Virus record (IMG/VR): IMGVR_UViG_3300020190_000035
Location: 16,091 to 80,090 of that record
Strand: one strand, 5' to 3'
Length of the DNA: 64,000 nucleotides
Origin: a virus
Shown: in pieces, positions 7,479-32,266 of the stretch
Layout: each line of letters begins with the position of its first letter
Numbering within the stretch: position 1 is the first letter of the stretch
Program-made: the position numbers and the translations under genes
The notes under the pieces: generated by a model
Told to the model about the DNA's origin: nothing
The model's input: the letters and a program-made list of their open reading frames with translations, nothing else
The model's database searches: none

Positions 7479-7492
7479 TTTTTATTCCCCCC

Positions 7493-12576: not shown

Positions 12577-12629
12577 TGGACTATAGACCTCCGATTGCGG
12601 CAAATAAGAATATGTTTACTTCAGGAAAT

Positions 12630-12638
12630 ATAGTAACA
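12630..12638 (-). promoter_or_regulatory. Extended -10 promoter for sheath/tube genes
   Basis: Minus strand reads TGTTACTAT, identical to the promoter candidate after the capsid gene at 35927-35935. Predicted start of transcription near 12623, giving a leader of about 47 nt before the sheath ATG. It occupies the 86-bp gap after the preceding gene. Confidence 0.5.
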
Positions 12639-12662
12639 GAGAACTTGTAAAAACAAACTACA

Positions 12663-16648: not shown

Positions 16649-17590
16649 TCAGTCATAATTGAGATCTTCTTTTCTATCATAAGACGAAGGATCTATTTGA
16701 TATAGATCTGTCAGTAAACTTGAACAAAGTTTTCTAATTTTTCTACTTTTATCAATTTCATTTAAAAATACTTGACTTAAATCATCGGCGTAATAGATGC
16801 TAGCCGTATTATGTGTTTCCGATCTTTTTCTAGCTATTTCATACCATTTTTCTTTACCATGAATAAGTTCACCATCAATCCATTTTTGAGTTGGACCAAC
16901 GCGGTGCTTTAGATAGTTTCTTACAAGAAGCTTACTTGAACCCTTAACCATATTAACTGCATGGAAATATGGTTCTCCTCCAGGAAAAATAGGAGAACCG
17001 GATGGGAAAACAATTATGTCACCAGCTTTTGGTTTATAAAAAATAATATCATTTTTTACCAAGAAGACAATTTCTCCATCTTCATAATCATCATTAAGGT
17101 AAGTTGTGCATGTAAGTAAAAACTTTTCTCCTGGCCAATACCATTCGCCAATCCCATAGTCTGTATGGAATTGCATTGTTTTCTTCTCTCCAGTATCAAC
17201 ATTGATATCATACCTAGCGATATTTGGTTTTGTAATAAAACAGTTGCTTGGAAGTGGCACCTTGTTTCTAGATGCATATTCTGTTATCGCTATTGTATTA
17301 GACTCAATAGTTCTTTGTAGAAGATTTTTTTCTTTTAGATGAAGTTCTATATCATAATTTTTAGAATTGATTATATTTTTAATATAAAAATTTTTTATTT
17401 CTTCTTCGTTTTTTGTGTGAGCATATTTTCCAAATATAAACCAATCAGTCCAATCAGTGAATATAGCACTCTTGCTCACTTCCTCTGAATTGAACATCGT
17501 TTTAGCAAGTTCATTTGTATCGGGAAGCAAATTGCTATAAACGCATATATAGGGATATATCTCTGTGTAGGAGGTGTCAAAAGGTAGCAT
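16649..17590 (-). CDS. 2OG-Fe(II) dioxygenase, long variant (oxygenase 1)
   Basis: 313 residues. Iron ligands are readable: H142-x-D144 (MQFHTDYG) and distal H210 (PYFHAVNM). The 2OG-binding position ten residues on is Lys220 rather than Arg. Between them lie [14 protein letters not shown] and [13 protein letters not shown], the core strands of the P4H/2OG-FeII_Oxy group. About 80 extra C-terminal residues ([18 protein letters not shown]) are not part of the core. It is the leftmost of the oxygenase series and ends 2 bp before the next one begins. Substrate unknown. Confidence 0.85.
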
Positions 17591-17591
17591 A

Positions 17592-18119
17592 TTAATCGGC
17601 CAATTGATGAAAAGTTGTATAGGAGTATTTTTCTCCTGAAATTATTGGCCTTGTTTCATGATAAACGCTAGAATCAAAAAAAACGCACATTCCTGCTTTT
17701 GGCTTTATCTCTAAATAAGGCCTATCTGAGTCCTTAGACTTAAAAAAACATATTTCTCCGCCAGTATAATCATCATTTATATAATAAACGGAAGCTAAAT
17801 CTATTCTAGGTTTTTTGTTTTCTATAACATAAGGATCGCTTGGTTCCCAATCTCTATGTCTTCCTATAAAATTAGCAATAGTATATCTTGCTATTGATTT
17901 TCCTGTACTAAATAATATTTGTTTTTTATAATATAAGTTTATATTATATTCTATTTTTGTAGAAAGATAACTAAAGTCATTGTATGTTTTTTCTATTCCA
18001 AAACTTTCAAAATGAATATTATTTGGAGCTTTTTCAAAAAAACCATTTAATATTGAGTTTTGAATTTCGGTTACTTTTTTGTCCTCAATAATATTGTCGA
18101 CTATAATCATTGGGTACAT
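17592..18119 (-). CDS. 2OG-Fe(II) dioxygenase, prolyl-4-hydroxylase-like (oxygenase 2)
   Basis: 175 residues, close to a bare catalytic domain. Metal ligands H88-x-D90 (IGRHRDWEP) and H154 (SVYHETRPI), with Lys164 as the 2OG-carboxylate residue, as in prolyl 4-hydroxylases. Core strands are [17 protein letters not shown] and [11 protein letters not shown]. It is packed between oxygenase 1 and the FkbM-like gene with no gaps, so they are co-transcribed. Lys in the cosubstrate position favours the P4H branch over the Arg-type branch found in the four-gene array to its right. Confidence 0.85.
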
Positions 18120-18701
18120 TTAGAGTGTTTCCCATCTTAAATATTTTCTAAATTCATTAATGCTAAATACTGATGGGTCAACCCACCAATCTTCGTGTTT
18201 TTCCCTTACAACCAGTGCGTAGCCTAAGCTATCCAATATCTCTCTTTGAGCATCCCTCATTGCAGAATTTCTGAAATACATATTGGCATCGTGTTCAAAA
18301 GTTATTATTGAGAACCTATATTGAGTCAGGGGAAGTGATATTAATCCCAATAAACTTAGGTAGTGGTTACCGAATGGTCTTCCATCGTGCTGATATCCTG
18401 CATCTATATCAACTTGTAAATAGTCTATTTGTTTTGGAAAATTATTATTTTCAAAATAAGATATATAATTGAAACTTAAAGCGTCACCAAAACAAGGATT
18501 TTTTCTATTTGTGCTAAATTCATTTCTTCTATCTTCTAGAATTTCAAAAGAAACTCCACTCCAATTATAGCTTGATTCTAAGTAAAATGTGTTGCTTCCT
18601 AACTTAGAGTCAAAAGCACCTAGCTCAACATAAAAACCATTATTTTTTTCGTTAAAAATTTCTACTACAAATTTTTCCTGAGAAGAACTTCCTTTATACA
18701 T
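18120..18701 (-). CDS. FkbM-type SAM-dependent methyltransferase
   Basis: 193 residues. The pattern fits FkbM-family O-methyltransferases: NNGFYVELGAFDSKLGSNTF near residue 20 (SAM-binding loop with acidic end), GVSFEILED about 25 residues later (acidic residue for the ribose), DYLQVDIDAG near 95 and IITFEHDAN near 130, ending with DSLGYALVVREKHEDWWVDP. Such enzymes usually methylate sugar hydroxyls. It is the only methyltransferase in the oxygenase cluster and adjoins oxygenase 2 directly, so a modified glycan or modified side chain could be a shared product. Substrate is unknown. Confidence 0.7.
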   Translation of the reverse strand: MYKGSSSQEKFVVEIFNEKNNGFYVELGAFDSKLGSNTFYLESSYNWSGVSFEILEDRRNEFSTNRKNPCFGDALSFNYISYFENNNFPKQIDYLQVDIDAGYQHDGRPFGNHYLSLLGLISLPLTQYRFSIITFEHDANMYFRNSAMRDAQREILDSLGYALVVREKHEDWWVDPSVFSINEFRKYLRWETL

Positions 18702-18715
18702 AGAATATTCAAACC

Positions 18716-19522
18716 TTACAATTTATATTCTTTACTATTTATTTTATTATGAACATCTTTAATTATATCTGGCATCCAAAATTTATGTGGATTTTCTTGT
18801 CCAACAATCTCTTTTTGCTCAAAAGAAGTTCCATAGCAAGATATGCTCAAGAATGCATATCTTTGTCCAAATGTTACTGGATAAACCTCATGCCTTCCCA
18901 TGTATGATGATGGATATATTGCTACACTGCCACTTTTGGGTGCATAAACATATGGAACATTCGGAAAATGAATTTGTCCACCCAAGTAAGAATAATCAGT
19001 CATTTCACTTTCGCTAGACACGCAGTCATTAAGATAGAGATTTATACTTGAGCTATTGTGCATTGATACTTGATTTCCCGTTTCTTTACCCCACTCATAT
19101 GGTACCTGATCGTCACAGTGTGGTCCTATTCTTTGACCATTTTCATATCCAGCTATATGACCAGTTGGTCTCCACCATGAAGTAGTCGCTGCATCAGGGA
19201 AATAACAGCAATATTCTACTAAAGCATCATAAACTGCATTTTCTAAATTGTCTACAAAATTAATATATTCCTTTGGTGTTTCTGTATAAAAATTTTGGCC
19301 TTTAGTGTCTAGATATCTCTGGGGCGCTTGTTGTACATCTTCTAATTTAAACTTAAATCCAGTTTTATTAACTGCATACTTTACTCCATTTTCTTCGTGG
19401 TAAGTAAATGTATCTTCTTGATTTTTGCGAATCCAATTTATATATTCAAACAAAAAATCTTGATCTATATCAATAACGTCTTCGCAAATTACAACTCCCA
19501 TTCCAATATGTCTTGACTTCAT
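18716..19522 (-). CDS. 2OG-Fe(II) dioxygenase (oxygenase 3, tandem array member)
   Basis: 268 residues. First-from-left of four paralogues that share WW-x(3)-GHI-x(2)-Y, G-x-H-x-D, Y-x-GG and P-K-x-G blocks. Ligands: H135-x-D137 and H211, 2OG Arg221. The N-terminal 100 residues form an accessory domain (GMGVVICEDVIDID, later YAVNKTGFKFKLEDV) that is also shared by the other three. An FPSNY-like block reads IYPSSYMGRHEV here. Cys105-Cys106 precede the core. Eight bases separate it from the next gene. Function is hydroxylation or oxidation of an unknown substrate. Confidence 0.88.
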   Translation of the reverse strand: MKSRHIGMGVVICEDVIDIDQDFLFEYINWIRKNQEDTFTYHEENGVKYAVNKTGFKFKLEDVQQAPQRYLDTKGQNFYTETPKEYINFVDNLENAVYDALVEYCCYFPDAATTSWWRPTGHIAGYENGQRIGPHCDDQVPYEWGKETGNQVSMHNSSSINLYLNDCVSSESEMTDYSYLGGQIHFPNVPYVYAPKSGSVAIYPSSYMGRHEVYPVTFGQRYAFLSISCYGTSFEQKEIVGQENPHKFWMPDIIKDVHNKINSKEYKL

Positions 19523-19530
19523 AATTTTCC

Positions 19531-20412
19531 TTAGTAATTTGACTTAGTAATATAATATTGTTCAGAGTTTTCTGAATACCCACATTCTTTAAGGTATCTC
19601 TGAAAATCCTCTCTAAGCGTTGACATATATACGTTAGTCGCCTTTTCTGCCAACTCTGGTTCGGTAACGGGGTCTGCAACATATTCGTGCACTGCTGGAT
19701 TTGGAGTTCCTTGACTATACCAACCTAGATAACTATATCTGAACCCATTGGTAACTGGTTTCACTTCATGAGCTGCCATATAATTCGATGGAAACATTAT
19801 TATATCTCCCTTTTTAGGAGAATAATCTATATTTAAGTAATTAAAGTAATGATGACCACCAGTATAATTTTGACTATTTAAATCCTCTTCGTTATCAACA
19901 GAATCATTGAAATAGACTAAACTAGTGAGGACATTTCTTAAAGCTAATTGATCTTTTGGTTCTAATATTCCATATATATAGTCTGCGCTTATATCAGAAT
20001 GAGAACCAAGATACACATTTTTTGGATACTGCAATATATGACCTTTTACTTTCCACCAAATACATTTATACGCTAGAGGAAAAATTTCCAGATATTGTAG
20101 GAGGCACTTATCTTTACATTGTTCTAAAAAGTTTAGAATTTCTTTTACATTTGAGTCATCTTTATAATGTATTGAACTAGCTCTCTTTGGCATTAAGTCT
20201 ATACTTGTTTTATTGAAGAAGTAACCACTTTTATTAACATATATTTCTTCACCAGTTTCTGGATCTATTCCAGGGCTATACATATCAGACCATTCCTCTT
20301 GGATTAATTGATCTGATTTTTTAATTAAATAATCCCAGTCTAATTGAATACAGTTTTCAAAAAGAACTACTCCACCACCAAGATTTTTAGGATCAACTTT
20401 ATTAAATAACAT
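19531..20412 (-). CDS. 2OG-Fe(II) dioxygenase (oxygenase 4, tandem array member)
   Basis: 293 residues. Ligands H138-x-D140 (LGSHSDIS), H215 (YMAAHEVKPV) and 2OG Arg225. The accessory N-terminal domain (GGGVVLFENCIQLDWDYL, then YVNKSGYFFNKTSIDLMP) and the WWKVKGHILQY block match its array neighbours. It overlaps the upstream gene by 11 bp, a sign of translational coupling. All catalytic residues are kept, so it should be active. Confidence 0.88.
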   Translation of the reverse strand: MLFNKVDPKNLGGGVVLFENCIQLDWDYLIKKSDQLIQEEWSDMYSPGIDPETGEEIYVNKSGYFFNKTSIDLMPKRASSIHYKDDSNVKEILNFLEQCKDKCLLQYLEIFPLAYKCIWWKVKGHILQYPKNVYLGSHSDISADYIYGILEPKDQLALRNVLTSLVYFNDSVDNEEDLNSQNYTGGHHYFNYLNIDYSPKKGDIIMFPSNYMAAHEVKPVTNGFRYSYLGWYSQGTPNPAVHEYVADPVTEPELAEKATNVYMSTLREDFQRYLKECGYSENSEQYYITKSNY

Positions 20413-21337
20413 TTTTTATAATTTCCCTATTGGTATCATGACTTGTCATGGGTCTTTTAACTGCTTCAGTTAAATACGTATTTTTTTCTGAGTATATATC
20501 AATATTTCTTTTTTTAAGATGGTCAATATAATCATCCATTATGGATGGCATCCAGACTTGACCACTATCTATTACATCAGAAGGCTGCCTTATATTTACT
20601 CCGACTTTTTCATCGTTTGATCCTTGCGCAAAATATCCAACATATGCATATCTTTCTCCATGTTGACATTCAAGCACTCTGTGTGTGCCCAAATAATTAG
20701 AAGGAAACATAAGAACATCTCCAGCTTTTGGAGAATATTTATAGTCTGCATAAGGAAAGTATATTTCGCCACCAACGTAATCATAATTATTTTTGATTAG
20801 TTCAACAGATTCAACAGAATTATTAAAATAAATTAAACCACCAAGAACATTTCTGATAGCAAGTTGCTGATCTGGTTCTGCTCCTGGCTGATAATTAACA
20901 TCATTATCACAATGTATACCAAACTTTGCGCCAGGGCCATATCCAACTATATGGCCCTGAGTTCTCCACCACAAACATGGGATCATCATTGGAAAAAATT
21001 CCACATATCTCAACATACAGTTGTACAAAACTTCTTCACATATCTTAAAAAATTTAAAATATTTACTATCTAATGTTTTATCTTCAAGAAAATTCATTAT
21101 GTGGTTGCACGATATGTTAATGTCCTCTAATGAATATCTATGACCGCTTCTGTTTATTGCATACAGAGGATTTTCATCTTCATCTTTTATGTAAGTAAAA
21201 TCTTGCTCAAGCGCTGTTTGTCTTAGTGAGGCTGCAAAATCTATTATAAAAGAATAATCTTCCATTGGTATAACATTCTTAAACAGAATGATTCCCATGT
21301 CGTGTTTTTCTATATTATCTTCTTTAACATCAAACAT
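20402..21337 (-). CDS. 2OG-Fe(II) dioxygenase (oxygenase 5, tandem array member)
   Basis: 311 residues. Ligands H142-x-D144 (FGIHCDND), H219 (YLGTHRVLE) and 2OG Arg229. Shares MGIILFKNVIPMEDYSF at the start, YAINRSGHRYSLEDI, WWRTQGHIVGY and SPKAGDVLMFPSNY with the other three array members. A charged C-terminal tail of about 55 residues follows the core. Seven bp separate it from oxygenase 6 upstream. The array most likely arose by tandem duplication; spread of identity suggests the copies have been kept for different substrates rather than as recent duplicates. Confidence 0.88.
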   Translation of the reverse strand: MFDVKEDNIEKHDMGIILFKNVIPMEDYSFIIDFAASLRQTALEQDFTYIKDEDENPLYAINRSGHRYSLEDINISCNHIMNFLEDKTLDSKYFKFFKICEEVLYNCMLRYVEFFPMMIPCLWWRTQGHIVGYGPGAKFGIHCDNDVNYQPGAEPDQQLAIRNVLGGLIYFNNSVESVELIKNNYDYVGGEIYFPYADYKYSPKAGDVLMFPSNYLGTHRVLECQHGERYAYVGYFAQGSNDEKVGVNIRQPSDVIDSGQVWMPSIMDDYIDHLKKRNIDIYSEKNTYLTEAVKRPMTSHDTNREIIKNVI

Positions 21338-21343
21338 ATAATT

Positions 21344-22462
21344 TTACACCAATTTTGGTTCTGTTCCACATGGTCCTTCTGGAAGATCAACAGCTTGGGG
21401 TTCTTTATTCATTAAATCATTATCTTCAAAAGTAATTGTATCGTGACTTTGACCATATTGAGTAACCTCCCTACCCTGATACACTGGATTCCATCCTGCT
21501 TCTAGACCAAATTGTTCAGCTTTAGTCTCCCATCTAGAATATTCTGTTCTACAATACATTTCATAATCATCATAAATATTGTTCAACCAAACTGGTGGGC
21601 ACCATTCAAAACTCTCTTTTGGCTCAGTGATAACTATATTACACGATTGGTCTGAAGATCCTTGTCCAAAAAAGGTTAAATAGGAATATCTAACTCCTTT
21701 TCCCATTCTTTCTACGTCATGAGCTGCAACATAATTTGTTGGAAAAAATATTATATCTCCCTTTTTTGGTTTATAAGAAATTTTTAAGTGTACAAATCTT
21801 AAATTTCCACCAGTAAAATTCTTTCCATTTAATTCTTCCTCTGAGTCAACACAATCGTTTAAATAAATTAATGCACCACATGTTTGACGAGAGGCAACCA
21901 TCCCCTTAGGCATATATCTAATACCTTTAGTAACCTTATAGTTTGTGTCGTTATCTGCGTGACAACCCAATATTCCACCATCACCATATCTAAGAATATG
22001 ACCTCTAGTTTTCCACCAAATTGAACCTATCATCAAAGGATAGTAGTCTATATATTTAATAAGACTTTTGTATATTTGATCTTCTAAATAGATAAAGAAA
22101 TTTTTTATTTTCTCTTTTGTATTTGGATTTACAGGATCAAGTATTCTAACTGGTGCTGCTGGAACATCTTCCATTCGATACCTAAAACCATCTTCGTTAA
22201 TTCCATAAGTTACACCATCTATTTCTTTGTAATTCCATCTGGATTCATGGGCCTTTTGTGCTCTTTCGTCTATGTGGCTCAGAATAAGATTTTGATCAAT
22301 TTCAAAGGCGTTTTTTACAACTATGATACCTGGCGCAAGTTCTTCTGTCTCAAGCTTAGCTATTTCATTGATAACATTTTTATCAAACTCTGGAGACACT
22401 GGATATGCTTCTGAACTCATTCTAGACTCATCTCTTAAGAAGAATTCTTTGTTATCTTCCAT
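21344..22462 (-). CDS. 2OG-Fe(II) dioxygenase (oxygenase 6, longest array member)
   Basis: 372 residues, with about 40 extra N-terminal and about 95 extra C-terminal residues compared with the core. Ligands H168-x-D170 (LGCHADND), H248 (YVAAHDVERM) and 2OG Arg258. The blocks WWKTRGHILRY, FTGGNLRF and KPKKGDIIFFPTNY match oxygenases 3-5. The C-terminal tail is rich in Glu and aromatic residues (ending EGPCGTEPKLV). The start overlaps the stop of the glutathione-peroxidase-like gene by one base, so the redox gene and the oxygenase are translated together. Confidence 0.88.
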   Translation of the reverse strand: MEDNKEFFLRDESRMSSEAYPVSPEFDKNVINEIAKLETEELAPGIIVVKNAFEIDQNLILSHIDERAQKAHESRWNYKEIDGVTYGINEDGFRYRMEDVPAAPVRILDPVNPNTKEKIKNFFIYLEDQIYKSLIKYIDYYPLMIGSIWWKTRGHILRYGDGGILGCHADNDTNYKVTKGIRYMPKGMVASRQTCGALIYLNDCVDSEEELNGKNFTGGNLRFVHLKISYKPKKGDIIFFPTNYVAAHDVERMGKGVRYSYLTFFGQGSSDQSCNIVITEPKESFEWCPPVWLNNIYDDYEMYCRTEYSRWETKAEQFGLEAGWNPVYQGREVTQYGQSHDTITFEDNDLMNKEPQAVDLPEGPCGTEPKLV

Positions 22463-23076
22463 TATCCTAAGACCTCATCTATTGCTTCTCTTACTGTCCA
22501 TCCTGCACCTTGAATTCTGGGAATTGTATCTAGAGGCATATCTTGCCAATTGAATCTAGACATCATAATGCCATCTCTACTTACTAAGAACTTTTCATAA
22601 TTATGAGATATCCTAGCTATAGCTTGCCCTGCTAAATTTTGCCCCATTATTGCTTGATCAGAAGCGTCTGCTTTACTATCGGAATATGCTCTTTTTTCAT
22701 AACCTTTTAAGGCTGAAAATAATGGGTGCTCATTTTTTCCATTTACTTCAACTTTTTCTAGAATTGGAAAAGTAACAAATGAATAATTATCTTTTATAAA
22801 ATTATCAATTTCTTCATTAGTTCCTGGTTCCATAAAGCCAAATTGGTTACATGGAAATCCCAATACAGAAAAGCCTCTGTCTTTAAATTCTTCATGTACG
22901 TGTTGTAGTTGCCATAATTGTCTACATGTTCTTGCGTAGGACCAAAACTTTGAGCATTGTGGACTATATCCATACTTACTAGATATATTGACCATTAAAG
23001 TAATTTTACCACGAAAATTAGATAGATAATTATTTTCACCAGTAATAGAATTTATTTGTATATCATAAACAGACAT
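22462..23076 (-). CDS. Glutathione peroxidase-like protein lacking the catalytic Cys
   Basis: 204 residues of the thioredoxin-fold GPx family. GFSVLGFPCNQFGFMEPGTNEEI (quoted in parts: GFSVLGFPCNQFG, then EPGTNEEI) is the family signature, and YEKFLVSRDG matches the usual WNFxKFLVxxxG strand. The peroxidatic site, normally SKCG or Sec, reads SKYG here with Tyr35. The tetrad Trp is replaced (HNY at 158-160). Gln78 of FPCNQF remains. Cys41, Cys51 and Cys76 are present and could take over. The Tyr codon is TAT, so selenocysteine is excluded. It has a 10-residue insert near residue 45. It may be inactive as a peroxidase or work as a thiol-binding or chaperone fold. Confidence 0.8.
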   Translation of the reverse strand: MSVYDIQINSITGENNYLSNFRGKITLMVNISSKYGYSPQCSKFWSYARTCRQLWQLQHVHEEFKDRGFSVLGFPCNQFGFMEPGTNEEIDNFIKDNYSFVTFPILEKVEVNGKNEHPLFSALKGYEKRAYSDSKADASDQAIMGQNLAGQAIARISHNYEKFLVSRDGIMMSRFNWQDMPLDTIPRIQGAGWTVREAIDEVLG

Positions 23077-23384
23077 TATTTTTCTCCAACAAAATTTACT
23101 TGTAAATAATTGTCAACTTTTATTTGACCAAAAAGATTATCATCATCCAACGATAGGTTCATGGTCAATGTACAAGGTATGGGGAATTCAGTTTTTCCAA
23201 CCAGCATTATGAAATTTTTTGTGTTATTTTTTTGCTGAAGATTAACAAAGCCTTTTTCATTATATATTTTATAATGAGCTATATTATCTAATATAGATAT
23301 ATCAAAATAACATTCTTCTTCTCCAAATGGTGTATCTATTTTAAGATTCCATTTACCTAAAAAATTTTTATTATATTCATCCAT
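23076..23384 (-). CDS. Small beta-rich protein of unknown function
   Basis: 102 residues with alternating polar and hydrophobic residues (GKWNLKIDTPFGEEECYFDI, then NFIMLVGKTEFPIPCTLTMN), suggesting a small beta-barrel, perhaps lipocalin-like in size. Its start overlaps nothing upstream but its stop overlaps the start of the GPx-like gene by one base. An extended -10 (23392-23400) lies so close that the transcript would begin at or within a base or two of the ATG, so this may be a leaderless mRNA. No family recognised. Confidence 0.55.
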   Translation of the reverse strand: MDEYNKNFLGKWNLKIDTPFGEEECYFDISILDNIAHYKIYNEKGFVNLQQKNNTKNFIMLVGKTEFPIPCTLTMNLSLDDDNLFGQIKVDNYLQVNFVGEK

Positions 23385-23391
23385 AGATATA

Positions 23392-23400
23392 ATTATATCA
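23392..23400 (-). promoter_or_regulatory. Extended -10 promoter giving a probable leaderless mRNA
   Basis: Minus strand reads TGATATAAT. Seven nt downstream of the TATAAT hexamer is 23384-23385, which is the A of the ATG of the 102-residue gene. The promoter would drive that gene, the GPx-like gene and the oxygenase array to its left. Confidence 0.55.
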
Positions 23401-23407
23401 CAAAGTC

Positions 23408-24079
23408 CTATTCGTAATAGAAACTTCCATTAGATAATGCTAGAGGTGGATTATCCTTATGCCAAAGATTAACAACAAGCACTTGTCTTATTCCAGACTT
23501 TGACCCAACTGTATTGTGTAATACATGACCGGCATCAAAAAAAATAGCTCTATTTCCTTTGTAGGCTATTTTTTCTCTATCTTTTTTTAAAGATATATAT
23601 TTTTTAATATATTTTTTTTCTAGTATATTTTTTTTGCCATCTTCTAATGTTTTTTTATGAATTTCTAAAAATCCACCATCTTCATTTTCTTTGCCATAAA
23701 AAACACAACCATATATTGGTCCTTTAAAAATTTTTGATTCTGCGTAAAGAAATGTATCTTCATCTACATGAATGTCTAAATATTGTCCTGGAAGATAAGT
23801 TCTTGTCCAATATTCAAATCCCAAAATATCATTTAGATCCCAAATCATTAGATCTTTCCATAAAGATTGGATAACTTTTTTCTTTAAAGTATTAGCTGGA
23901 GTTCTCCACCAGCCATCCCAAAACATGTATGGGGCAAAGCAGTCGCTTTTTTCATCATGATATGAATTTAGATGTTCTGCTATTTTTTCTCCATAATTCA
24001 TTATCTCGGGAAAAAAAAGATTGTCAGAAATTACTTCCTCATATGTATCTTGATCTAAACAATTGTCTTTTATCAACAT
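23408..24079 (-). CDS. 2OG-Fe(II) dioxygenase (oxygenase 7, distinct subtype)
   Basis: 223 residues. Ligands H104-x-D106 (YLDIHVDEDT), H188 (GHVLHNTVG) and 2OG Arg198 (SGIRQVLVVNLW). The motif spacing is longer than in the array members because of a Lys-rich insert between strands (LEDGKKNILEKKYIKKY). It lacks the WW...GHI domain and the FPSNY block, so it belongs to a different subgroup. It overlaps no neighbour; a promoter lies just downstream of its stop. Substrate unknown. Confidence 0.83.
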   Translation of the reverse strand: MLIKDNCLDQDTYEEVISDNLFFPEIMNYGEKIAEHLNSYHDEKSDCFAPYMFWDGWWRTPANTLKKKVIQSLWKDLMIWDLNDILGFEYWTRTYLPGQYLDIHVDEDTFLYAESKIFKGPIYGCVFYGKENEDGGFLEIHKKTLEDGKKNILEKKYIKKYISLKKDREKIAYKGNRAIFFDAGHVLHNTVGSKSGIRQVLVVNLWHKDNPPLALSNGSFYYE

Positions 24080-24095
24080 GTAAATTGAAATTATT

Positions 24096-25307
24096 TTACT
24101 GATCTTCTTCTTCTGAAGATTCTTGCTCAGAAAAATTCATTGGTTGAATAATTTGATTCAAATAATTTTTAACTGATTTTTTTTCTGTTCTAGAAAAATA
24201 TTTAAGAACAATATCTTCTATAGTATTGTTTTTTCTTCTATCGTCTAAATAGTCAGATGAATTGTATATCATATCCAATATATCAACACTTGAAACTGTT
24301 TCTAAATCTAGTGAGTTATTTACTGCAAATTCATATATCTTAGATTCAAAAAATTCCTTTTCTTTATCGATAATTGATTGTGGAATAGATATTGGTAGAG
24401 GAAAATTTTCTAACAATGAAGATAATGTTCTGTATCTTATGTTTAACATAAACCATTTTTTGAATTTTGAACCAAGCTCAGCTGGCTCAACTATTGACTG
24501 TCTAGGATCTTCATTTCCATTAAAATAATGCTCTAATACAGTACTTGGCTGAGAATCAATTAATTCTTGTATTGCATCTGATGGAATATCCCAATCTTGA
24601 AATGCTTTTTTGCATTTTATTGCAATTGTGTCATTTGAATTCCATGGATCTTCCGCCAAGATAGACCATTGATATGCCATTTTTAAAATATGTGGGAAAG
24701 TCTGAGACATAAAAACTCTACCTGGCCAATCTTTATACGCCCTATCAGTAATTGATCCATGTGTTAATTTTGCAATATAAAGGTTAGACATTGATGCTAA
24801 AACCAACTGCCAACCAAGTACGCCGTCATTTCCAAGATAATCTCTATCTACAATATCTGGTGCACCTTCTTTATTAGCATCTGCGAACGGCATAGATGCA
24901 TAGTTATCATCGATCAAATCACATCTTCTCTTTGGATCTATGGCTGACCCAAACCATTCACCATGTTCATCTTCTGATACATTAGCAACGGAGTTGTGAA
25001 GTATAAAAGTGTGAGACTCTTTATCGTAATCTCCACTTAGAATATCCTCAAGTGACTCAAATGTTTCAGCGTTTATATCTTGTGAATAATTTTCTGATTT
25101 AATTCTATAAACAAATTCAGTTTTGAAAAAAAACATTTTTGTAAAGGCTATTAGAACATGATCTTCAATTTCATATAAATCATAATGAAATAACTCTTTT
25201 AGACCACTTGAATGAACTGTATATATGCCAAAATCTTCTTTAATATCAGTTATGGCATAACATGCATATAGCGATGGATCGTAATTTTCTACATTTTTAT
25301 AAATCAT
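24096..25307 (-). CDS. Unknown 403-aa protein of the oxygenase cluster
   Basis: I do not recognise a family. The N-terminal half is beta-rich (YACYAITDIKEDFGIYTVH), the middle has Trp/Asp-rich segments (GVLGWQLVLASMSN, KDWPGRVFMSQTFPH, SILAEDPWNSND), and the C-terminal 120 residues are helical and charged, ending in an acidic tail (SSEEEDQ). No signal peptide or membrane segment. It lies between oxygenase 7 and two small acidic proteins. Its role could be a substrate, a scaffold or an accessory factor for the oxygenases; nothing in the sequence decides this. Confidence 0.5.
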   Translation of the reverse strand: MIYKNVENYDPSLYACYAITDIKEDFGIYTVHSSGLKELFHYDLYEIEDHVLIAFTKMFFFKTEFVYRIKSENYSQDINAETFESLEDILSGDYDKESHTFILHNSVANVSEDEHGEWFGSAIDPKRRCDLIDDNYASMPFADANKEGAPDIVDRDYLGNDGVLGWQLVLASMSNLYIAKLTHGSITDRAYKDWPGRVFMSQTFPHILKMAYQWSILAEDPWNSNDTIAIKCKKAFQDWDIPSDAIQELIDSQPSTVLEHYFNGNEDPRQSIVEPAELGSKFKKWFMLNIRYRTLSSLLENFPLPISIPQSIIDKEKEFFESKIYEFAVNNSLDLETVSSVDILDMIYNSSDYLDDRRKNNTIEDIVLKYFSRTEKKSVKNYLNQIIQPMNFSEQESSEEEDQ

Positions 25308-25326
25308 TGAAAATTTAATCTTCCTT

Positions 25327-25572
25327 TTAATTAATTAAATTGGATAATTCTTTAATTTTTTCTTCTACTTTTTTAATTTTTAAAATTAATTCTTTTATAT
25401 AAAATTCAGACATTTTATCTTCCTCTGGAATAAAATTATCTATATCAAAACTTTCTGGATCTTTACCTATTGCGCACAATCTTTGTATTAAATCTTTTTC
25501 AAAAGATTTTTTTGTCTGTTTATATGTAAGTAGCTTTTCTTCTAGAGTCAAAGAAAAATTCATTTTATTCAT
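25327..25572 (-). CDS. Small acidic helical protein (paralogue A)
   Basis: 81 residues, helical, with a conserved centre GKDPESFDIDNFIPEED and a C-terminal Lys/Glu helix (LILKIKKVEEKIKELSNLIN) that looks like a short coiled coil. The upstream gene encodes a relative with the same layout (SGLDPDDFDPDSF and a C-terminal helix). The two overlap by 8 bp. No known family; the pattern suggests a small dimerising adaptor. Confidence 0.55.
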   Translation of the reverse strand: MNKMNFSLTLEEKLLTYKQTKKSFEKDLIQRLCAIGKDPESFDIDNFIPEEDKMSEFYIKELILKIKKVEEKIKELSNLIN

Positions 25573-25822
25573 TTTCCAATTGATTGATTTTGTTTTTTAT
25601 ATTAACATAGACCTCAGTGTGTAACTTTAAAATAAGTAAGTTTGAATATGTATCAATAGATTCATCTATCTCTTCAAATGACCCAAGAAAAGAATCAGGA
25701 TCAAAATCATCAGGATCTAACCCAGATTCTAGAATCTTTTCAAGAATTGCTTGCTCTCGAGAAATCAGAACTTTGTTATAAACTTCTAATTTTGTTTCTT
25801 TTTTTAAGTTTGAAAAATTCAT
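25565..25822 (-). CDS. Small acidic helical protein (paralogue B)
   Basis: 85 residues, starts MNFSNLKKE (paralogue A has an internal MNFSLTLEE near its start). Both have a helix, then a (G)-x-D-P-x-x-F-D-x-D-x-F loop, then a helix ending Lys/Asn-rich. The acidic loop resembles a calcium- or protein-binding turn but is not an EF hand. A sigma-70-type promoter is visible upstream (25857-25884). Confidence 0.55.
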   Translation of the reverse strand: MNFSNLKKETKLEVYNKVLISREQAILEKILESGLDPDDFDPDSFLGSFEEIDESIDTYSNLLILKLHTEVYVNIKNKINQLENE

Positions 25823-25856
25823 TTATTAATATCTCTTTTCTACTCTGATCTTAGCT

Positions 25857-25884
25857 ATAGTACTGCTAAAATGAATACAATCAA
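25857..25884 (-). promoter_or_regulatory. Sigma-70-like promoter inside the oxygenase cluster
   Basis: Minus strand has TTGATT (25879-25884), a 16-bp spacer and TACTAT (25857-25862). Predicted start near 25850, leader about 28 nt to the ATG at 25822. It lies in a 64-bp gap after the DUF6065-like gene. Confidence 0.45.
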
Positions 25885-25886
25885 TC

Positions 25887-26585
25887 CTATTCTGGTTCCT
25901 TAAACTTTGGTAGACCTTCCGTTTTTGGACCTATTGTATTACCTTTTTCGTCTAGACCAGTTCTGATTCCATTCATCCAAGTCCATGGTTGTTCATGTAG
26001 TTTTTTCATTTTTGCATCACCGTATGCTTGTCTTTTTTCCATTAATTCTTTTTTATCCCATAAATTTTCTATTGAAAAATCTACTTCTTGTAGTAGGTTG
26101 TTTGGATAAATATTAAAGAACATAAATGGCGTGCCGCTTTTAAAAATTACTGGCTCACCAATTTTTGTAATTTTCCAATTCATATTAAACTCATCTGGCC
26201 ACCAAGAACTAGGTATGCTTGCAGACAAAGGAACTGCTCCATCAACGAAATAATTTGGAGATCCAGTGATCCAAGTATCGTACCCTTCCTCTGTATTGAT
26301 TGCCCATCCGGTAGCAAATGACATAATACCTATTATTGATGGTATTACAACAGGTCTGCCATTTAAAAATTCTCCGTCAAGGACTTTTGGAGGAGAATTT
26401 CCACCATCCCACTGAACCACCACATCTTGCTGAAGAATTAATTCCCATCCATTAACATTTGCTGCTGACATTGGCAAGCATCTATACGCATGTTTGTTGT
26501 ACGTTTCGTCCATCCAATCTCTTTTGAGTCTGGATTGCTTAATGCTAGGCGGATTCTGATGAGTTTTCGTTAATGTTACTTTCAT
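25887..26585 (-). CDS. DUF6065-like protein
   Basis: 232 residues from the ATG at 26585; an in-frame GTG at 26597 is the longer choice. The run KRDWMDETYNKHAYRCLPMS, followed by ANVNGWELI and VQWDGG, matches what I recall of the DUF6065 family, seen in bacteria and viruses often near oxygenases and sugar genes. Later motifs are SWWPDEFNMNW and GTPFMFFNIYP. Function of the family is not known to me. Its start lies inside the end of the second GPx-like gene (about 40 bp overlap), so the two are coupled. Confidence 0.55.
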   Translation of the reverse strand: MKVTLTKTHQNPPSIKQSRLKRDWMDETYNKHAYRCLPMSAANVNGWELILQQDVVVQWDGGNSPPKVLDGEFLNGRPVVIPSIIGIMSFATGWAINTEEGYDTWITGSPNYFVDGAVPLSASIPSSWWPDEFNMNWKITKIGEPVIFKSGTPFMFFNIYPNNLLQEVDFSIENLWDKKELMEKRQAYGDAKMKKLHEQPWTWMNGIRTGLDEKGNTIGPKTEGLPKFKEPE

Positions 26586-27201
26586 TATAGCTTTCACTTA
26601 ATAATTTTTCTATGGTTTTTTTTATATTATTTAATGCTTGTTCAGAATTAGTTTGCCTATTACCACTATTAAATGCCAAATCTAATAAATCAGAATTGCA
26701 AAATCTTACATATCTTTGACCGTCTCTAGAAACAATAAATTTTTCAAAGTTTCCATGAACTGGGTCTCTATTCTTTTGAAATTGTTCATATAGTGCATGT
26801 TGTTTTCCGCTAACTTCATAATAACTTAATTTACAATTTTCATTTAATATATTTACCATTTCAGAAAATGGTAAATCCGTATCATACAATACTTTCATAT
26901 GATCTCTCATGTTTTCTGCACTTGTGTTTGAATCAGCAAATTCTCCATAGGCGTCTTGACAAAAATCAATACTTGGAATTGCTAGAACTTCAAACCCCTG
27001 ATCCCTATACTCATTATAGAGATTTTGAATAATGGGATACTGTGCTGAATTTGCACATTCTCCAGTAACATTGACTATCATTGTTACTTTTCCCTTTAAT
27101 TCATGAAGAATATTTTTTTTACCGTCTATTGAATTAAGGTCAATAGTATATATATTAGTTTCGGCTTGCTCAACTATTGATTCTTCTGAGTTTTGTTCCA
27201 T
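26545..27201 (-). CDS. Divergent glutathione peroxidase-like protein with catalytic Cys
   Basis: 218 residues. The fold is recognisable from GKVTMIVNVTGECANSAQY (position of SKCGFTPQY; Cys49 is kept), YRDQGFEVLAIPS, and NFEKFIVSRDGQRYVRF near residue 151. The FPCNQFG block is lost (IPSIDFC), so the Gln of the catalytic tetrad is missing, and the Trp before NF is also missing. It thus complements the other GPx-like gene, which lost Cys but kept Gln. It starts inside the end of oxygenase 8 (32 bp overlap). The N-terminal 15 residues are Glu-rich. Activity with a thiol donor is possible but unproven. Confidence 0.7.
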   Translation of the reverse strand: MEQNSEESIVEQAETNIYTIDLNSIDGKKNILHELKGKVTMIVNVTGECANSAQYPIIQNLYNEYRDQGFEVLAIPSIDFCQDAYGEFADSNTSAENMRDHMKVLYDTDLPFSEMVNILNENCKLSYYEVSGKQHALYEQFQKNRDPVHGNFEKFIVSRDGQRYVRFCNSDLLDLAFNSGNRQTNSEQALNNIKKTIEKLLSESYNESNINENSSESA

Positions 27202-27859
27202 TTTCTTCTTTTTCTTCTTTAAATTTATTTGCTATTTGATTATATTGTAAATTATTATCCTTATAATCAAACATTGTTACAGCTGAATACTTGATCCCAT
27301 CTGTAACAGGCATAGCGCCATGCGCATAAATATAGGTTGAAGGGAAGAAAATTACATCACCTTTTTGTGGTTTGAAATTTATTTCAAGATATGGAAACCA
27401 TAACTCTCCACCTTCATAATCGTCATTAAAATATACTATTGAAGACAGGGTACAGTTGTAGGAAAATCCATGGTCTGTATGGACAGCAAAATGCTGACCT
27501 GGATTATACTTCACGAAGTTTATTGCTTCCATAAACTCCATTTTAAAGTTATATCTGCTTTCATAATCTGATAAACAGCTTCTTAAAATAGATTCTGTAT
27601 CTTCATATATATTTTTAATTTCTGACAATTCCTCTGGGAGCACCTGCCAGTGCGCTGAGCTCACTTTAAGGTCAAGACAATCTCTATAATCTGGCATACT
27701 TTCTTTGTATCCAACTGTTGCCTCGTTCCACTTAAAGTATTCGTGAGAACTGTCTTTTAGACAAGTTTCCAATCTTTCTGGAATATTTAAATCAGTAGAT
27801 ACAGCTTTTCTGTACAAAATGATTCCAAATTTTGGGTCTTCTACATTATATATTTCCAT
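27170..27859 (-). CDS. 2OG-Fe(II) dioxygenase (oxygenase 8)
   Basis: 229 residues from the ATG at 27859; an in-frame TTG at 27871 would add four. Numbered from the ATG, ligands are H127-x-D129 (FAVHTDHG) and H180 (YIYAHGAMPV), with Lys190 as the 2OG residue. Core strands read SSIVYFNDDYEGGELWFP and KPQKGDVIFFPSTY, very close to P4H-like phage oxygenases. It is the first gene of the leftward half of a divergent pair; the promoter palindrome lies 30 bp upstream. The C-terminus is Glu/Lys-rich and overlaps the GPx-like gene. Confidence 0.87.
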   Translation of the reverse strand: MEIYNVEDPKFGIILYRKAVSTDLNIPERLETCLKDSSHEYFKWNEATVGYKESMPDYRDCLDLKVSSAHWQVLPEELSEIKNIYEDTESILRSCLSDYESRYNFKMEFMEAINFVKYNPGQHFAVHTDHGFSYNCTLSSIVYFNDDYEGGELWFPYLEINFKPQKGDVIFFPSTYIYAHGAMPVTDGIKYSAVTMFDYKDNNLQYNQIANKFKEEKEENGTKLRRINS

Positions 27860-27889
27860 GTTCCTCTGCAATTCGTTAATATGCTTTTG

Positions 27890-27904
27890 TGATATACTAT
27901 ATCA
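27890..27904. promoter_or_regulatory. Divergent palindromic promoter
   Basis: TGATATACTATATCA is an inverted repeat apart from its centre. Rightward it gives TGATATACT (27890-27898), leftward TGATATAGT (27904-27896), so each strand carries an extended -10. It sits between the leftward oxygenase 8 and the rightward oxygenase 9 and is preceded by TTTTG, as at the recA promoter. A dimeric repressor could cover both starts. Confidence 0.55.
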
Positions 27905-27946
27905 TAGTACGTAACATATATCAACGCAAAAACGGAAAATATCACT

Positions 27947-28585
27947 ATGAACAGTAGGGCAGACGAAGAAAAATCCTTAATTGAACCTGGACATTTTGGA
28001 TCTAGCGCTGAAAATATCAAAATAATTACTAACTTTATTAGTATTAATGATATAAAAATCATTCAAAATTTTCTTCCAAATATCAATGAATGGATGGATT
28101 CTGGCGAAAATAAATACGACGAAAATGGCACCTGCATATATGATGCTGCATATTGGTCAAATCGCCAATGCAGTGGAGATATTTTAAAAAGAATAAATCC
28201 TGAAGTTTACAACATAATTGATTTTTATATAAATAAAATGAAGCTATTCTTAGACCAAGAATTTAAAGTTGACCTTTCAACTAGGCCACCTGTTATTATT
28301 AAGTGGAAACCTGGAATGGAACAACAACCCCATGCAGATAAACAAACGAATGATGGAAAACCCAATCCATTTCCAACGTATGATATTAATTCTCTTTTTT
28401 ACTATAATGATGATTTTGAAGGTGGCGAATTGTATTATCCTCAACACGATATCGTCGTCAATCCCAAGCCAGGTTTAGCGGTTGCCCATCCTGGTGATAT
28501 ACATTATCTACATGGTGTAAAAACCATAATTAGCGGATATAGATACACTACTCCATCTTTTTACACAATAAACAAAGTTTATTAA
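27947..28585 (+). CDS. 2OG-Fe(II) dioxygenase (oxygenase 9, inverted cassette)
   Basis: 212 residues, rightward, against the direction of the surrounding virion module. Ligands H129-x-D131 (QQPHADKQ) and H189 (HYLHGVKTI), 2OG Arg199 (SGYRYTTPSF). Core strands LFYYNDDFEGGELYYP and NPKPGLAVAHPGD are of the P4H group. It is first in a three-gene cassette and starts about 43 nt after the predicted transcription start. No strong Shine-Dalgarno site is seen (GGAAA 9 nt upstream). Confidence 0.86.
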   Translation: MNSRADEEKSLIEPGHFGSSAENIKIITNFISINDIKIIQNFLPNINEWMDSGENKYDENGTCIYDAAYWSNRQCSGDILKRINPEVYNIIDFYINKMKLFLDQEFKVDLSTRPPVIIKWKPGMEQQPHADKQTNDGKPNPFPTYDINSLFYYNDDFEGGELYYPQHDIVVNPKPGLAVAHPGDIHYLHGVKTIISGYRYTTPSFYTINKVY

Positions 28586-28587
28586 TA

Positions 28588-29379
28588 ATGAATATTTCTC
28601 CAATAGAAAATGTTTCTTTTAAAGATATTATAAATAATATAGATAATTATTATAATCTTTTTTTAAAAAATGGTTTAATCTTTTTTAAAAATGCAAACGT
28701 TTCTCCAGATGAGCAGCAAAAAATTTCTAATGAGTTAGCTAAAAAAATTAAATGTAATTATGTGGCACCGATAGATTATGAAGATCATTCATTTACTTTT
28801 AAAAAAAATAATAAAATTTATTCAAAAAACGATCTTTTTATACCCTGGCATTTAGAGCATTGCGAGAAACCATTTTCTCAAGTAGCAACTTCTTGGAACA
28901 TGGTACATCTATCTTCCGACTATGGAATTGGTGATACTGGATTTGTTAATTCATACGAACTGTTTAATAGAATGCCCTATGAATGGAAAGAGCTATTGAA
29001 TCAATCATACATAATTGATCATAACAAAAATTTTCCTGCTAGAAAATGTATTCAAAAACATTTTTTTAAAAATCAAAACATAATAAAACTATCACCCAAT
29101 AAAGAAGATAAATTATATTCGGTTAATAATCAATTGCCTTCAGATAAGAATTCAAAACTTTTTTTAGAAATTACAAATTGGTATTTAAATGAAACTGCTA
29201 ACAACACAGACTTACAGGTCTGGTGGCATTGGTCTGAAGGAGATTTACTAATAGTAGATTTGTCCCTAATGGCACATGCGGTAAAAGGAGGTTTTACTTT
29301 GGGAGAAAGAGTTATAACAAGAAATTGGATTTTTAAAGAAGAATCTGATTATCTAAACCAAAAGGAACACAATGAATAA
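28588..29379 (+). CDS. TauD/clavaminate synthase-like 2OG dioxygenase (oxygenase 10)
   Basis: 263 residues, the only member here of the TauD/CAS branch. H88-x-E90 (IPWHLEH) is the first facial pair; Glu in place of Asp is also seen in clavaminate synthase. Distal H230 and Arg241 lie in LMAHAVKGGFTLGERVITRNW. An opening LKNGLIFFKNANVSPDEQ matches the usual TauD start (helix, then GxxxFRG-like strand). It follows oxygenase 9 by 2 bp without a clear ribosome site, so it is probably coupled. TauD-type enzymes act on small molecules or free amino acids more often than on proteins. Confidence 0.8.
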   Translation: MNISPIENVSFKDIINNIDNYYNLFLKNGLIFFKNANVSPDEQQKISNELAKKIKCNYVAPIDYEDHSFTFKKNNKIYSKNDLFIPWHLEHCEKPFSQVATSWNMVHLSSDYGIGDTGFVNSYELFNRMPYEWKELLNQSYIIDHNKNFPARKCIQKHFFKNQNIIKLSPNKEDKLYSVNNQLPSDKNSKLFLEITNWYLNETANNTDLQVWWHWSEGDLLIVDLSLMAHAVKGGFTLGERVITRNWIFKEESDYLNQKEHNE

Positions 29380-29917
29380 TCTTTGTATTAAAAGAAATGT
29401 TATCGATATTTCATATAGTCAAAAGATAATAGATTATTTAAAAAATAATAGTCCATCCAAAGATCCTACTGGATATTCTCCATTTGGAGTGTATTCAGGC
29501 ATTTCTAGTAACGAAACATTTCAAGATATATTTAAAATAATATATTCAAATTGTAAAAATCTTATTCAAGATAATTTTAATTGTCAAGTATACGACGAAG
29601 GAATGAGTGACATAACGGAAATGAGTACAGGACATTTTCTACCTGTTCACTATGACCACAACCCAGCTTTAAATAAAAATGTTTTAACAAAAACTGGTGC
29701 AGGTCACCCAGAAAGAAATATAAGTTCTGTATTTTATTATAATGATGATTTTCAGGGTGGAGAATTATATTTTCCAAATCAAAATATTTTAATAGAACCA
29801 GAACCTGGATTGTTCGTCTCATTTCCAGCTAATGACGATTTTCCTCATGAAGTAAAAGTGATAAAAAATGGTCGTCGTTGGTGTTCTACTTCTTTTTGGT
29901 GTATTAAGAAAGATTAA
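29372..29917 (+). CDS. 2OG-Fe(II) dioxygenase (oxygenase 11, end of cassette)
   Basis: 181 residues. Ligands H93-x-D95 (LPVHYDHNP), H159 (DFPHEVKVI) and 2OG Arg169. Core strands SSVFYYNDDFQGGELYFP and EPEPGLFVSFP closely resemble oxygenase 9, so the two are paralogues flanking the TauD-like gene. AAGGA lies 5 nt before the ATG, which overlaps the previous gene by 8 bp. Its TAA shares bases with the stop of the oncoming tail fibre gene (TTAA), leaving no room for a terminator between the two. Confidence 0.86.
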   Translation: MNNLCIKRNVIDISYSQKIIDYLKNNSPSKDPTGYSPFGVYSGISSNETFQDIFKIIYSNCKNLIQDNFNCQVYDEGMSDITEMSTGHFLPVHYDHNPALNKNVLTKTGAGHPERNISSVFYYNDDFQGGELYFPNQNILIEPEPGLFVSFPANDDFPHEVKVIKNGRRWCSTSFWCIKKD

Positions 29918-31524
29918 GCTTGTAGGTCTCCTATTGCGACCCAAGTATTTGTTGCTCGTTTAATCAACGTTGCAGATGACCATTGTGCTCTTAACTTGAG
30001 TCCCGGAGTAGCATTTATTGTTACACCAGCACCAGCAGTAATTGTAGTCTGCCCTGCACCAGTTTGAAGTATTATTATCTGAGATCCAATTGGGAATGCA
30101 ACAGAAGAGTTTGGTGGAACAGTTAAGGTATTTGCAGCAGCATTTGATACTTCAACTAATTTATCTTTGTCGGTTAAAACAACAGTGTAGCTCGCAGCTT
30201 GGGTGTTAGTAACCAATGTGCTTGAGGGGAAGTCTATTACTGTTGTACCATTGCCAACTTGAATCTTTTTATTTGTAGAATCCCAAGACATTATTGCGTC
30301 TGTTGATGATGAAGAAGTTGATAAGGTCAATGTTGGTGTTGTTATAGTGGGACTGGTTATTGATGGACTAGTTGCTAGAACAACAGAGCCAGAACCAGTT
30401 GTTCCATTGCTTAAAGCAGATGCTGCAATCTGCGACCCATTGATATGAACTGCGCCGACATCAATGGTTCCAAGTGTTCCTGAGAAAACTTCAGATGTAT
30501 TTGTTGCATCTGGTATAAATGTAAACTTACCAGTTGAGTCGTCGTATCCAAAAAATCCGGCCTTCGCTGATGTTCCGTCGTGCCAGCGAAACTCGACACC
30601 ACGGTCTTTGTTGTCATCCGACGCTGGAGCAGTATCACCACCAACCGTGATGATTGGGTCATCTACGGTAATCGTTGTTGAGTTAACAGTTGTTGTTGTC
30701 CCGTTAACTGTTAAGTCTCCGCTAACAGTGAGGATTCCGGCAACAGTGATGTTGCCTGTTGTATTTAATTGGGCAAACTGCACAGATGCGTCTGTAGCTA
30801 CAGATTGGCCAATTGCAATTGAAGCACTAGAGCCCTCGCCTGGTGTGTGAGTAACGGTAACCCCAGTTCCAGCGGTTATATCAGAGATGTAATTTCCTGT
30901 CGTATCTGTTCCAAGGGCAACTGAGTTTGCAGCGATTGTTGCGGTGATTGACGCATTAGCCGAGCCATTGAACGAGGCGGAACCAGTGACATCGCCTGTC
31001 AACTCAATCGTTCTTGAGGTGGCAAGCGTGGTTGCGGTATCTGCATTGCCCGTCAAATTTCCAGTGACATTGCCCGTTACGTTACCCGTCAATGGTGCGT
31101 TGACACCTGCAAAAGTCACGGTAGAGTCAGTACCGACGGCCTGACCAATAGCAATTGTGGGTGTTGCGGCTTCCCCAGAGTTATTGCTCAGGGTTACACC
31201 AGTGCCAGCGACAAGAGACTCAACATACGAGCCGACCGTATCCACGGAGAGATTGACGGCGTCGTTTACCCAGGCGGTGCCGTTCCAGCGCAAGAAGTCA
31301 CCATTTGCAGCTGAAGTTATTGTAACGTCAGCGAGACCATTAAGATAAGCTCCACTTATATCTGCAGTTAGATATGAAAGAGAATTCCAGGCTGTTGTTC
31401 CATCTCCAACTTTAAGTTTACCGGTATTTGTTTCATATCCGATTTCTCCTGCGTACAAAACTGGATTATTAGTTGACCAAGACGATGAAGTAGCCCTTTT
31501 AAACTGAATTCTTGCGCCAGACAT
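29914..31524 (-). CDS. Tail fibre / appendage protein with repeat modules
   Basis: 536 residues. The start (ARIQFKRATSSSWST, then LYAGEIGYETNTGKLKVGDG) is the short N-terminal module common in aquatic phage fibres. The middle has repeats TGNVTGNLTGNAD, SRTIELTGDVTGSASFNGS, ATIAANSVALGTDTTGNY and TAGTGVTVTHTPGEGS that are nearly identical to those in the 680-residue fibre. The C-terminus (AANTLTVPPNSSVAFPIGSQ) is a compact beta domain often found at fibre tips. It overlaps the 81-residue fibre gene by one base. Probably binds the host surface or serves as a fibre segment. Confidence 0.8.
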   Translation of the reverse strand: MSGARIQFKRATSSSWSTNNPVLYAGEIGYETNTGKLKVGDGTTAWNSLSYLTADISGAYLNGLADVTITSAANGDFLRWNGTAWVNDAVNLSVDTVGSYVESLVAGTGVTLSNNSGEAATPTIAIGQAVGTDSTVTFAGVNAPLTGNVTGNVTGNLTGNADTATTLATSRTIELTGDVTGSASFNGSANASITATIAANSVALGTDTTGNYISDITAGTGVTVTHTPGEGSSASIAIGQSVATDASVQFAQLNTTGNITVAGILTVSGDLTVNGTTTTVNSTTITVDDPIITVGGDTAPASDDNKDRGVEFRWHDGTSAKAGFFGYDDSTGKFTFIPDATNTSEVFSGTLGTIDVGAVHINGSQIAASALSNGTTGSGSVVLATSPSITSPTITTPTLTLSTSSSSTDAIMSWDSTNKKIQVGNGTTVIDFPSSTLVTNTQAASYTVVLTDKDKLVEVSNAAANTLTVPPNSSVAFPIGSQIIILQTGAGQTTITAGAGVTINATPGLKLRAQWSSATLIKRATNTWVAIGDLQA

Positions 31525-31780: not shown

Positions 31781-32266
31781 TTATTTAAAGCTTGGTGGGA
31801 AGTATGGTGGGAAGTATGGTGGGAAGAAAGGTGGGAAGTATGGTGGGAAGTATGGTGGGAAGTATGGTGGGAAGTATGGTGGGAAATAGGGTGGAAAGAA
31901 AGGTGGGAAGAAAGGTGGGAAGTATGGTGGGAAGAAAGGTGGGAAGAAAGGTGGGAAGAAAGGTGGGAAGAAAGGTGGGAAAAAGGGTGGGAAGAAAGGT
32001 GGGAAATATGGGCTATACTTAGTATAGGCAACTGGTTCTCTACGAGGATAAACAGTATTAGCAGAAGGGCTAGAAGAAATTATTTCATCTAATCTTGTCA
32101 ATAAAGGCTGACCAGCAGTTGGGTCATTTAATGCAGTATTTGTTACAGTTCCTTTAGTAAAATCTGCTGCTGTTAATTTGGGATCAGCAACAGGTGGTTT
32201 ATCCCCAACAATATTAGGGACATTATTTTTTCTTGTTCCAGACGCATTACCAATATTAAAAGCCAT
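31781..32266 (-). CDS. Proline/aromatic repeat protein (PP(F/Y)F)n
   Basis: 161 residues. Residues 1-84 are ordinary and polar (start [18 protein letters not shown]). Residues 85-160 are a near-perfect tetrapeptide array: SPYF, then seventeen PPFF or PPYF, then PPSF and a final Lys. I know of no function for such a protein. The periodic Pro-Pro with aromatic residues could form a polyproline-II fibre or an adhesive strand. It lies within the fibre cluster and next to eleven oxygenases, so it is a candidate substrate for prolyl or tyrosyl hydroxylation (inference). A palindromic promoter lies upstream. Confidence 0.7.
31787..32014 (-). repeat. 12-bp tandem repeat, about 19 units
   Basis: On the plus strand the units read GGTGGGAAGTAT or GGTGGGAAGAAA (12 bp), coding PPYF and PPFF on the minus strand. 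Because 12 is a multiple of three, gain or loss of units changes length without breaking the frame. The plus strand is almost all G and A with regular GGG runs, so G-quadruplex or triplex structures are possible. Confidence 0.9.

Follow-up and report, generated by a model that had tools for sequence, protein, structure and literature searches.

Clusters of 2-oxoglutarate oxygenase genes linked to FFPP-repeat fibre genes in uncultured phages

The stretch of viral DNA examined here (the window) comprises 64,000 nucleotides, positions 16,091 to 80,090 of the IMG/VR record IMGVR_UViG_3300020190_000035, which is 80,090 bases long. Between positions 16649 and 29917 it carries eleven open reading frames (ORFs) for 2-oxoglutarate (2OG)-Fe(II) dioxygenases, and beyond them lie fibre genes that include one for a protein of [F/Y]FPP repeats (Table 1). 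An earlier note, made from the sequence of the window alone, had listed the eleven ORFs by their starts, and all are confirmed. Pfam assigns ten of them to PF13640 and one (28588) to PF02668 (TauD); the curated cut-off is passed by the TauD protein and by eight of the PF13640 matches, while 23408 and 27947, at 20.3 and 22.0 bits, do not reach the 27 bits of PF13640. The Hx[DE] motif, a distal His and an Arg or Lys about ten residues further are visible in all eleven, as had been read before, and four of the genes (18716, 19531, 20402 and 21344) do form a tandem array of paralogues, 30-34% identical over about 260 amino acids. In G003, a 145 kb relative, ten of the eleven genes are retained in the same order at 50-90% identity, and the Hx[DE]...H...[RK] set is kept in these orthologues of the ten prolyl 4-hydroxylase (P4H)-like genes. 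The TauD gene is absent from G003 and from another related contig (L013). No further PF13640-type 2OG genes were detected elsewhere in G003 or in G002 (IMG/VR contig 3300021091_000001, 202,043 bases); every 2OG gene detected on the phage contig falls inside this cluster. Ten genes of the type found by our hidden Markov model (HMM) thus lie within 13.3 kb; since viral loci of three control sets hold only 0.07-0.12 2OG genes per 10 kb with the same HMM, the clustering is not due to chance.

The [F/Y]FPP-repeat protein (31781-32266) lies outside the coordinates given in the earlier note, which had suggested checking virion proteins, DNA and glycans for modification but missed this candidate substrate. 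Its gene sits among fibre genes and is conserved in G003. The resemblance of its N-terminus to PASTA domains is weak. The FFPP repeat as such is strict: the two residues between successive PP pairs are nearly always FF, YF, HF or WF. The unit is [F/Y]FPP and not the Gly-X-Y of collagen. Sampled FFPP proteins of other contigs bear fn3, PASTA, S74 fibre-chaperone or weakly Hint-like domains. The FFPP DNA gave no match in cultured phages, though such repeats may be masked in that search.

Table 1. Features of the oxygenase cluster and its surroundings, in window coordinates
Feature	Position	Strand	Remarks
Tail sheath genes and virion protein	11314..14998	-	PHROGs tail sheath; structural module adjoining the cluster
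2OG oxygenase, 313 aa	16649..17590	-	PF13640 29.1 bits; HTD-H-K/R; 61% to G003 orthologue
2OG oxygenase, 175 aa	17592..18119	-	PF13640 47.9 bits; HRD
Conserved 193-aa protein (methyltransferase of the earlier note)	18120..18701	-	No Pfam match; recurs in 5/21 clusters
2OG oxygenase, tandem array member 1	18716..19522	-	PF13640 33.0 bits; HCD
2OG oxygenase, tandem array member 2	19531..20412	-	PF13640 44.9 bits; HSD
2OG oxygenase, tandem array member 3	20402..21337	-	PF13640 32.9 bits; HCD
2OG oxygenase, tandem array member 4	21344..22462	-	PF13640 40.6 bits; HAD
Glutathione-peroxidase-like protein	22462..23076	-	PF00255 100 bits; Tyr at catalytic Cys position (SSKYGYSPQC)
2OG oxygenase, 223 aa	23408..24079	-	PF13640 20.3 bits, below Pfam cut-off; HVD; 90% to G003 orthologue
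Conserved 403-aa protein	24096..25307	-	No Pfam match; 63% in G003
DUF6065 protein	25887..26597	-	PF19541 149 bits; in 21/21 FFPP/2OG clusters examined
Glutathione-peroxidase-like protein 2	26545..27201	-	PF00255 47.8 bits; Cys kept (GECANSAQY)
Core 2OG oxygenase, prolyl-4-hydroxylase type	27170..27871	-	PF13640 48.9 bits; profile matches 3itq/5hv0
Core 2OG oxygenase, prolyl-hydroxylase type	27947..28585	+	Joint profile with 29372: P3H1 8k0e 7.4e-11, P4H 3itq
2OG oxygenase, TauD/TfdA type	28588..29379	+	PF02668 58.4 bits
2OG oxygenase, paralogue of 27947	29372..29917	+	PF13640 44.2 bits
Fibre-type protein, Mtd_N domain (N-terminal domain of the major tropism determinant)	29914..31524	-	PF18454 E 1.9e-15
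FFPP-repeat protein, 161 aa, proposed substrate	31781..32266	-	PASTA-like N-terminus and about 19 [F/Y]FPP repeats
Long repeat-rich fibre-type protein	32322..34364	-	Identity to G002 falls within this gene
Terminase large subunit	47534..49390	-	phrog_2 7.8e-31; nearest is Moorella phage MTATph1, 38%

A search of viral contigs for the repeat found recurring FFPP/2OG clusters. DNA coding for three [F/Y]FPP units, used as the search pattern, returned at least 120 loci, close relatives among them, and one 2OG HMM was applied to the fetched flanks of these and of the control sets alike. Among the matches listed, 2OG genes occur at 84 of 120 FFPP loci, and their density of 2.98 per 10 kb compares with 0.069 at TGNV fibre repeats, 0.123 at collagen-like GPx repeats and 0.082 at TPTP repeats, a 24- to 43-fold enrichment (Fisher p 1e-24 to 1e-27, loci not de-replicated). 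PF13640 itself shows the same preference within these listed matches: 42 of the first 50 FFPP contigs contain it, with up to 11 copies in one of 18.7 kb, compared with 7 of 50 contigs picked by a TGNVTGN fibre repeat. A collagen-like substrate as a general rule was rejected, as loci with GPx repeats are not enriched for 2OG genes. The linkage is also positional within contigs. Of the 142 2OG genes on 18 contigs that span at least 40 kb, 103 are no more than 10 kb away from an FFPP gene, a count never reached in 10,000 block shifts (mean 46.6, maximum 89). In 13 contigs a gap of 9-115 bp separates the FFPP gene from its closest 2OG gene, which has the same orientation and often follows it. In GTDB genomes the pattern gave 13 matches, four of which are genuine long FFPP repeats; the fetched flank contains a 2OG gene in three of these four and in none of the nine short or out-of-context matches. 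The cluster, for whose density the earlier note knew of no described parallel, is not unique: FFPP-bearing viral contigs commonly hold 5-14 such genes.

The content of the module was surveyed in 21 clusters that combine an FFPP gene with three or more 2OG genes close by. All 21 hold DUF6065 and a 2OG gene of the 27170 type, the latter mostly at or near DUF6065, and a remotely related family ('ACPA253') is found in 12 and glutathione-peroxidase-like proteins in nine. Some clusters add sulfotransferase-like, short-chain dehydrogenase-like or TauD-like proteins. Relatives of the terminase, sheath and capsid-like proteins of the window were found in none of the other fully fetched FFPP contigs outside the clade of G002 and G003. 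With such proteins not shared, the constancy of DUF6065 and of the 27170-type gene means that the module is shared between phage lineages. It is common among uncultured phages and is not T4-like.

Comparison with solved structures, a further suggestion of the earlier note, separates the enzymes. The 27170-type profile finds the P4H of B. anthracis first (8e-8), then LH3, P3H1 and the P4H of Paramecium bursaria Chlorella virus-1 (PBCV-1). An AlphaFold2 model of this type (pLDDT 86.9) has as its top Foldseek matches the PBCV-1 enzyme vCPH and an algal P4H in complex with (Ser-Pro)5, and aligns with the group of collagen and algal P4H and P3H1 at 15-21% identity; by profile and predicted fold, prolyl hydroxylases are thus its nearest solved structures. 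The joint profile of 27947 and 29372 reaches P3H1 and then P4H among solved sequences, and this pair, judged by its sequence profile, resembles prolyl 3- and 4-hydroxylases. No match to a solved structure was found for the profile of the tandem array or for the TauD protein.

The recurrence of the FFPP-2OG pairing in many unrelated phages suggests that the enzymes probably decorate the phages' own tail fibres. We therefore read the cluster as a cassette for post-translational modification of the tail fibre that hydroxylates FFPP-repeat fibres, with a probability of about 0.65. The reaction, modified residue, timing, order and benefit that we infer are as follows. The core types 27170 and 27947 would hydroxylate residues of the [F/Y]FPP repeats, most likely prolines, in the fibre or tip protein 31781-32266, the stalk being modified during late gene expression. 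The remaining 2OG oxygenases would probably act on further repeat positions or on neighbouring fibre proteins, and DUF6065 may be a constant accessory, perhaps, as a guess, in substrate recognition. The phage would likely gain from this a polyproline-rich stalk made rigid and hydroxylated, or else a surface whose chemistry can be varied for adsorption. The earlier suggestion of a multi-step modification system rather than redundant copies holds in that the subtypes are diverse, are conserved across related contigs and have the look of a modification system; what changes is that the cluster is not unique and that a likely substrate is visible. In a more specific version, the module is mobile among many uncultured phages and its 5-14 2OG enzymes each add their own, distinct hydroxyl to the [F/Y]FPP stalk, yielding a combinatorially decorated, tunable adhesin. 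This version is tentative and on the whole doubtful; if true, it would represent a new kind of protein modification in phages.

Several points weigh against the cassette as we propose it. Enzymatic activity and modified peptides of the virion are so far only predicted. In the clade of the window, 1.9 kb with fibre genes separate the FFPP gene from the 2OG gene closest to it, and the missing solved match of the tandem array bears on the type of substrate assigned to it. The HMM was built from the window clade, albeit applied alike to all sets, and the p-values overstate the evidence because the FFPP loci include close relatives and were not de-replicated. Habitat was not matched in the control sets, a weakness that does not touch the test within contigs. 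In the cultured cyanophages S-SSM7 and S-CAM7, 2OG genes adjoin fibre genes and the regions read are free of FFPP, so that phage 2OG enzymes must have substrates other than FFPP as well. These cyanophage genes, the lack of a prolyl-hydroxylase-like solved relative for the array and the sulfotransferase-like protein of some clusters would all suit an alternative in which the 2OG enzymes act on other virion or fibre proteins (for example by Asn/Asp, Lys or Tyr hydroxylation) or on fibre-attached glycans, and FFPP merely travels along in the fibre module. We consider this unlikely, given that other proline-rich and fibre repeats show no 2OG enrichment, that the core enzymes are prolyl-hydroxylase-like and that the FFPP-2OG link is often one of direct adjacency.

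The linkage of the FFPP protein to 2OG genes across unrelated phages points to a virion fibre protein as the target, and not to DNA or glycans. For phage 2OG enzymes whose role is not known, a part in DNA repair or in 2OG/nitrogen status has been put forward (PMC3037559), yet it is improbable that those studied here act on phage DNA or free nucleotides, in the manner of TET/JBP hypermodification, or on small host metabolites in 2OG/nitrogen signalling: the cluster is placed in the virion structural module, no TET/JBP model of Pfam rises above cut-off against its proteins, and the FFPP linkage would be left unexplained. Very little weight falls to an indirect association, with both gene types simply common in one phage group or habitat. 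The redundancy of the loci and the unmatched habitats of the controls would allow for it; the positional enrichment within contigs, the spread of the link over phages without common terminase, sheath or capsid-like genes, and the three of four genuine GTDB loci all speak against it.

Of the 'auxiliary' genes reported in aquatic phages, those for 2OG oxygenases and prolyl hydroxylases rank with the most common. The closest known viral enzyme is vCPH of PBCV-1, the best Foldseek match of 27170; it is reported to act on proline residues of peptides (Eriksson 1999, cited in PMC9301287), and for this algal virus the literature read describes no array next to a fibre gene with FFPP repeats. Collagen and algal P4H and P3H1 are similar to the core enzymes in fold and profile and have proline-rich repeats as their own substrates, but the phage repeat is [F/Y]FPP and not Gly-X-Y, and the phage activity is only predicted. 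T4-like cyanophages carry several 2OG-Fe(II) oxygenases of the same superfamily (PHROG 61) per genome, some beside tail fibre genes; unlike the window, they show no FFPP in the regions read, and DUF6065 has no match in cultured phages. At most five 2OG genes are listed per cyanophage genome (Table 3, PMC3037559), with proposed roles in DNA repair or 2OG/nitrogen signalling (PMC3037559), and a 2026 annotation paper describes widespread phage proteins resembling EGLN3 (PMC12774648). A Baltic Sea study called the use of viral prolyl 4-hydroxylase 'cryptic' and mentioned collagen in viral tail fibres (PMC9301287). The P4HA that it treats as an auxiliary metabolic gene of Baltic and other aquatic viromes may be the same enzymes met singly, and, apart from a general mention of collagen-like fibres, it puts forward neither a substrate nor a gene neighbourhood (PMC9301287). 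In the open-access literature we found no paper that ties phage 2OG clusters to FFPP repeats, and nothing relevant on FFPP or DUF6065 in phages. The recurring, specific FFPP link provides a candidate target for phage prolyl hydroxylases and makes their 'cryptic' use concretely testable. If our reading is right, phages modify their own adhesins by oxygen-dependent chemistry, which would bear on host recognition, virion stability and the oxygen dependence of infection, and the clusters would be a source of repeat-modifying enzymes.

The cluster is borne by one phage, as had been assumed. The window is a fragment of an aquatic myovirus of bacteria of about 202 kb, and 50,052 of its bases are identical to G002. 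The two ends of G002 adjoin each other in the comparison with G003, so G002 is, on this sequence comparison, probably close to complete. Past the identical bases, identity to G002 falls to about 70% in the repeat-rich fibre gene 32322-34364, near position 33962, which may reflect recombination or misassembly. An origin from T4-type cyanophages was rejected: the terminase has its relatives in Moorella, Bacillus and Acinetobacter phages (29-38%) with no T4-like phages among its matches, and psbA, a gene that such cyanophages often carry, was looked for in G002 and G003 and found in neither. The DNA of the cluster showed no similarity to cultured phages.

Regarding the other genes, the redox partners claimed for the cluster are present as two glutathione-peroxidase-like proteins, in the first of which (22462), reading the translation by eye, Tyr replaces the peroxidatic Cys or Sec. 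The methyltransferase call for 18120-18701 is unconfirmed, because a Pfam search of the product gave nothing even at E<=1. The model of the DUF6065 protein has a dUTPase-like beta-clip core, despite its place in a fibre module; all 50 PDB matches listed are dUTPases (TMq about 0.4, TMt 0.5-0.7). The 'ACPA253' family has relatives in haloarchaeal Hafunaviridae, for example HRTV-7 gene 38 (L351), where they sit between DNA-metabolism and tail genes in a region that, as read, is without 2OG or fibre annotation. In some FFPP proteins a Hint/intein-like C-terminal domain (L058, by weak Pfam scores; L142, by eye) suggests self-processing. Finally, the related contig L013 has, at 6938-8089 inside its 2OG cluster, a gene that by eye resembles one for a cytochrome P450.

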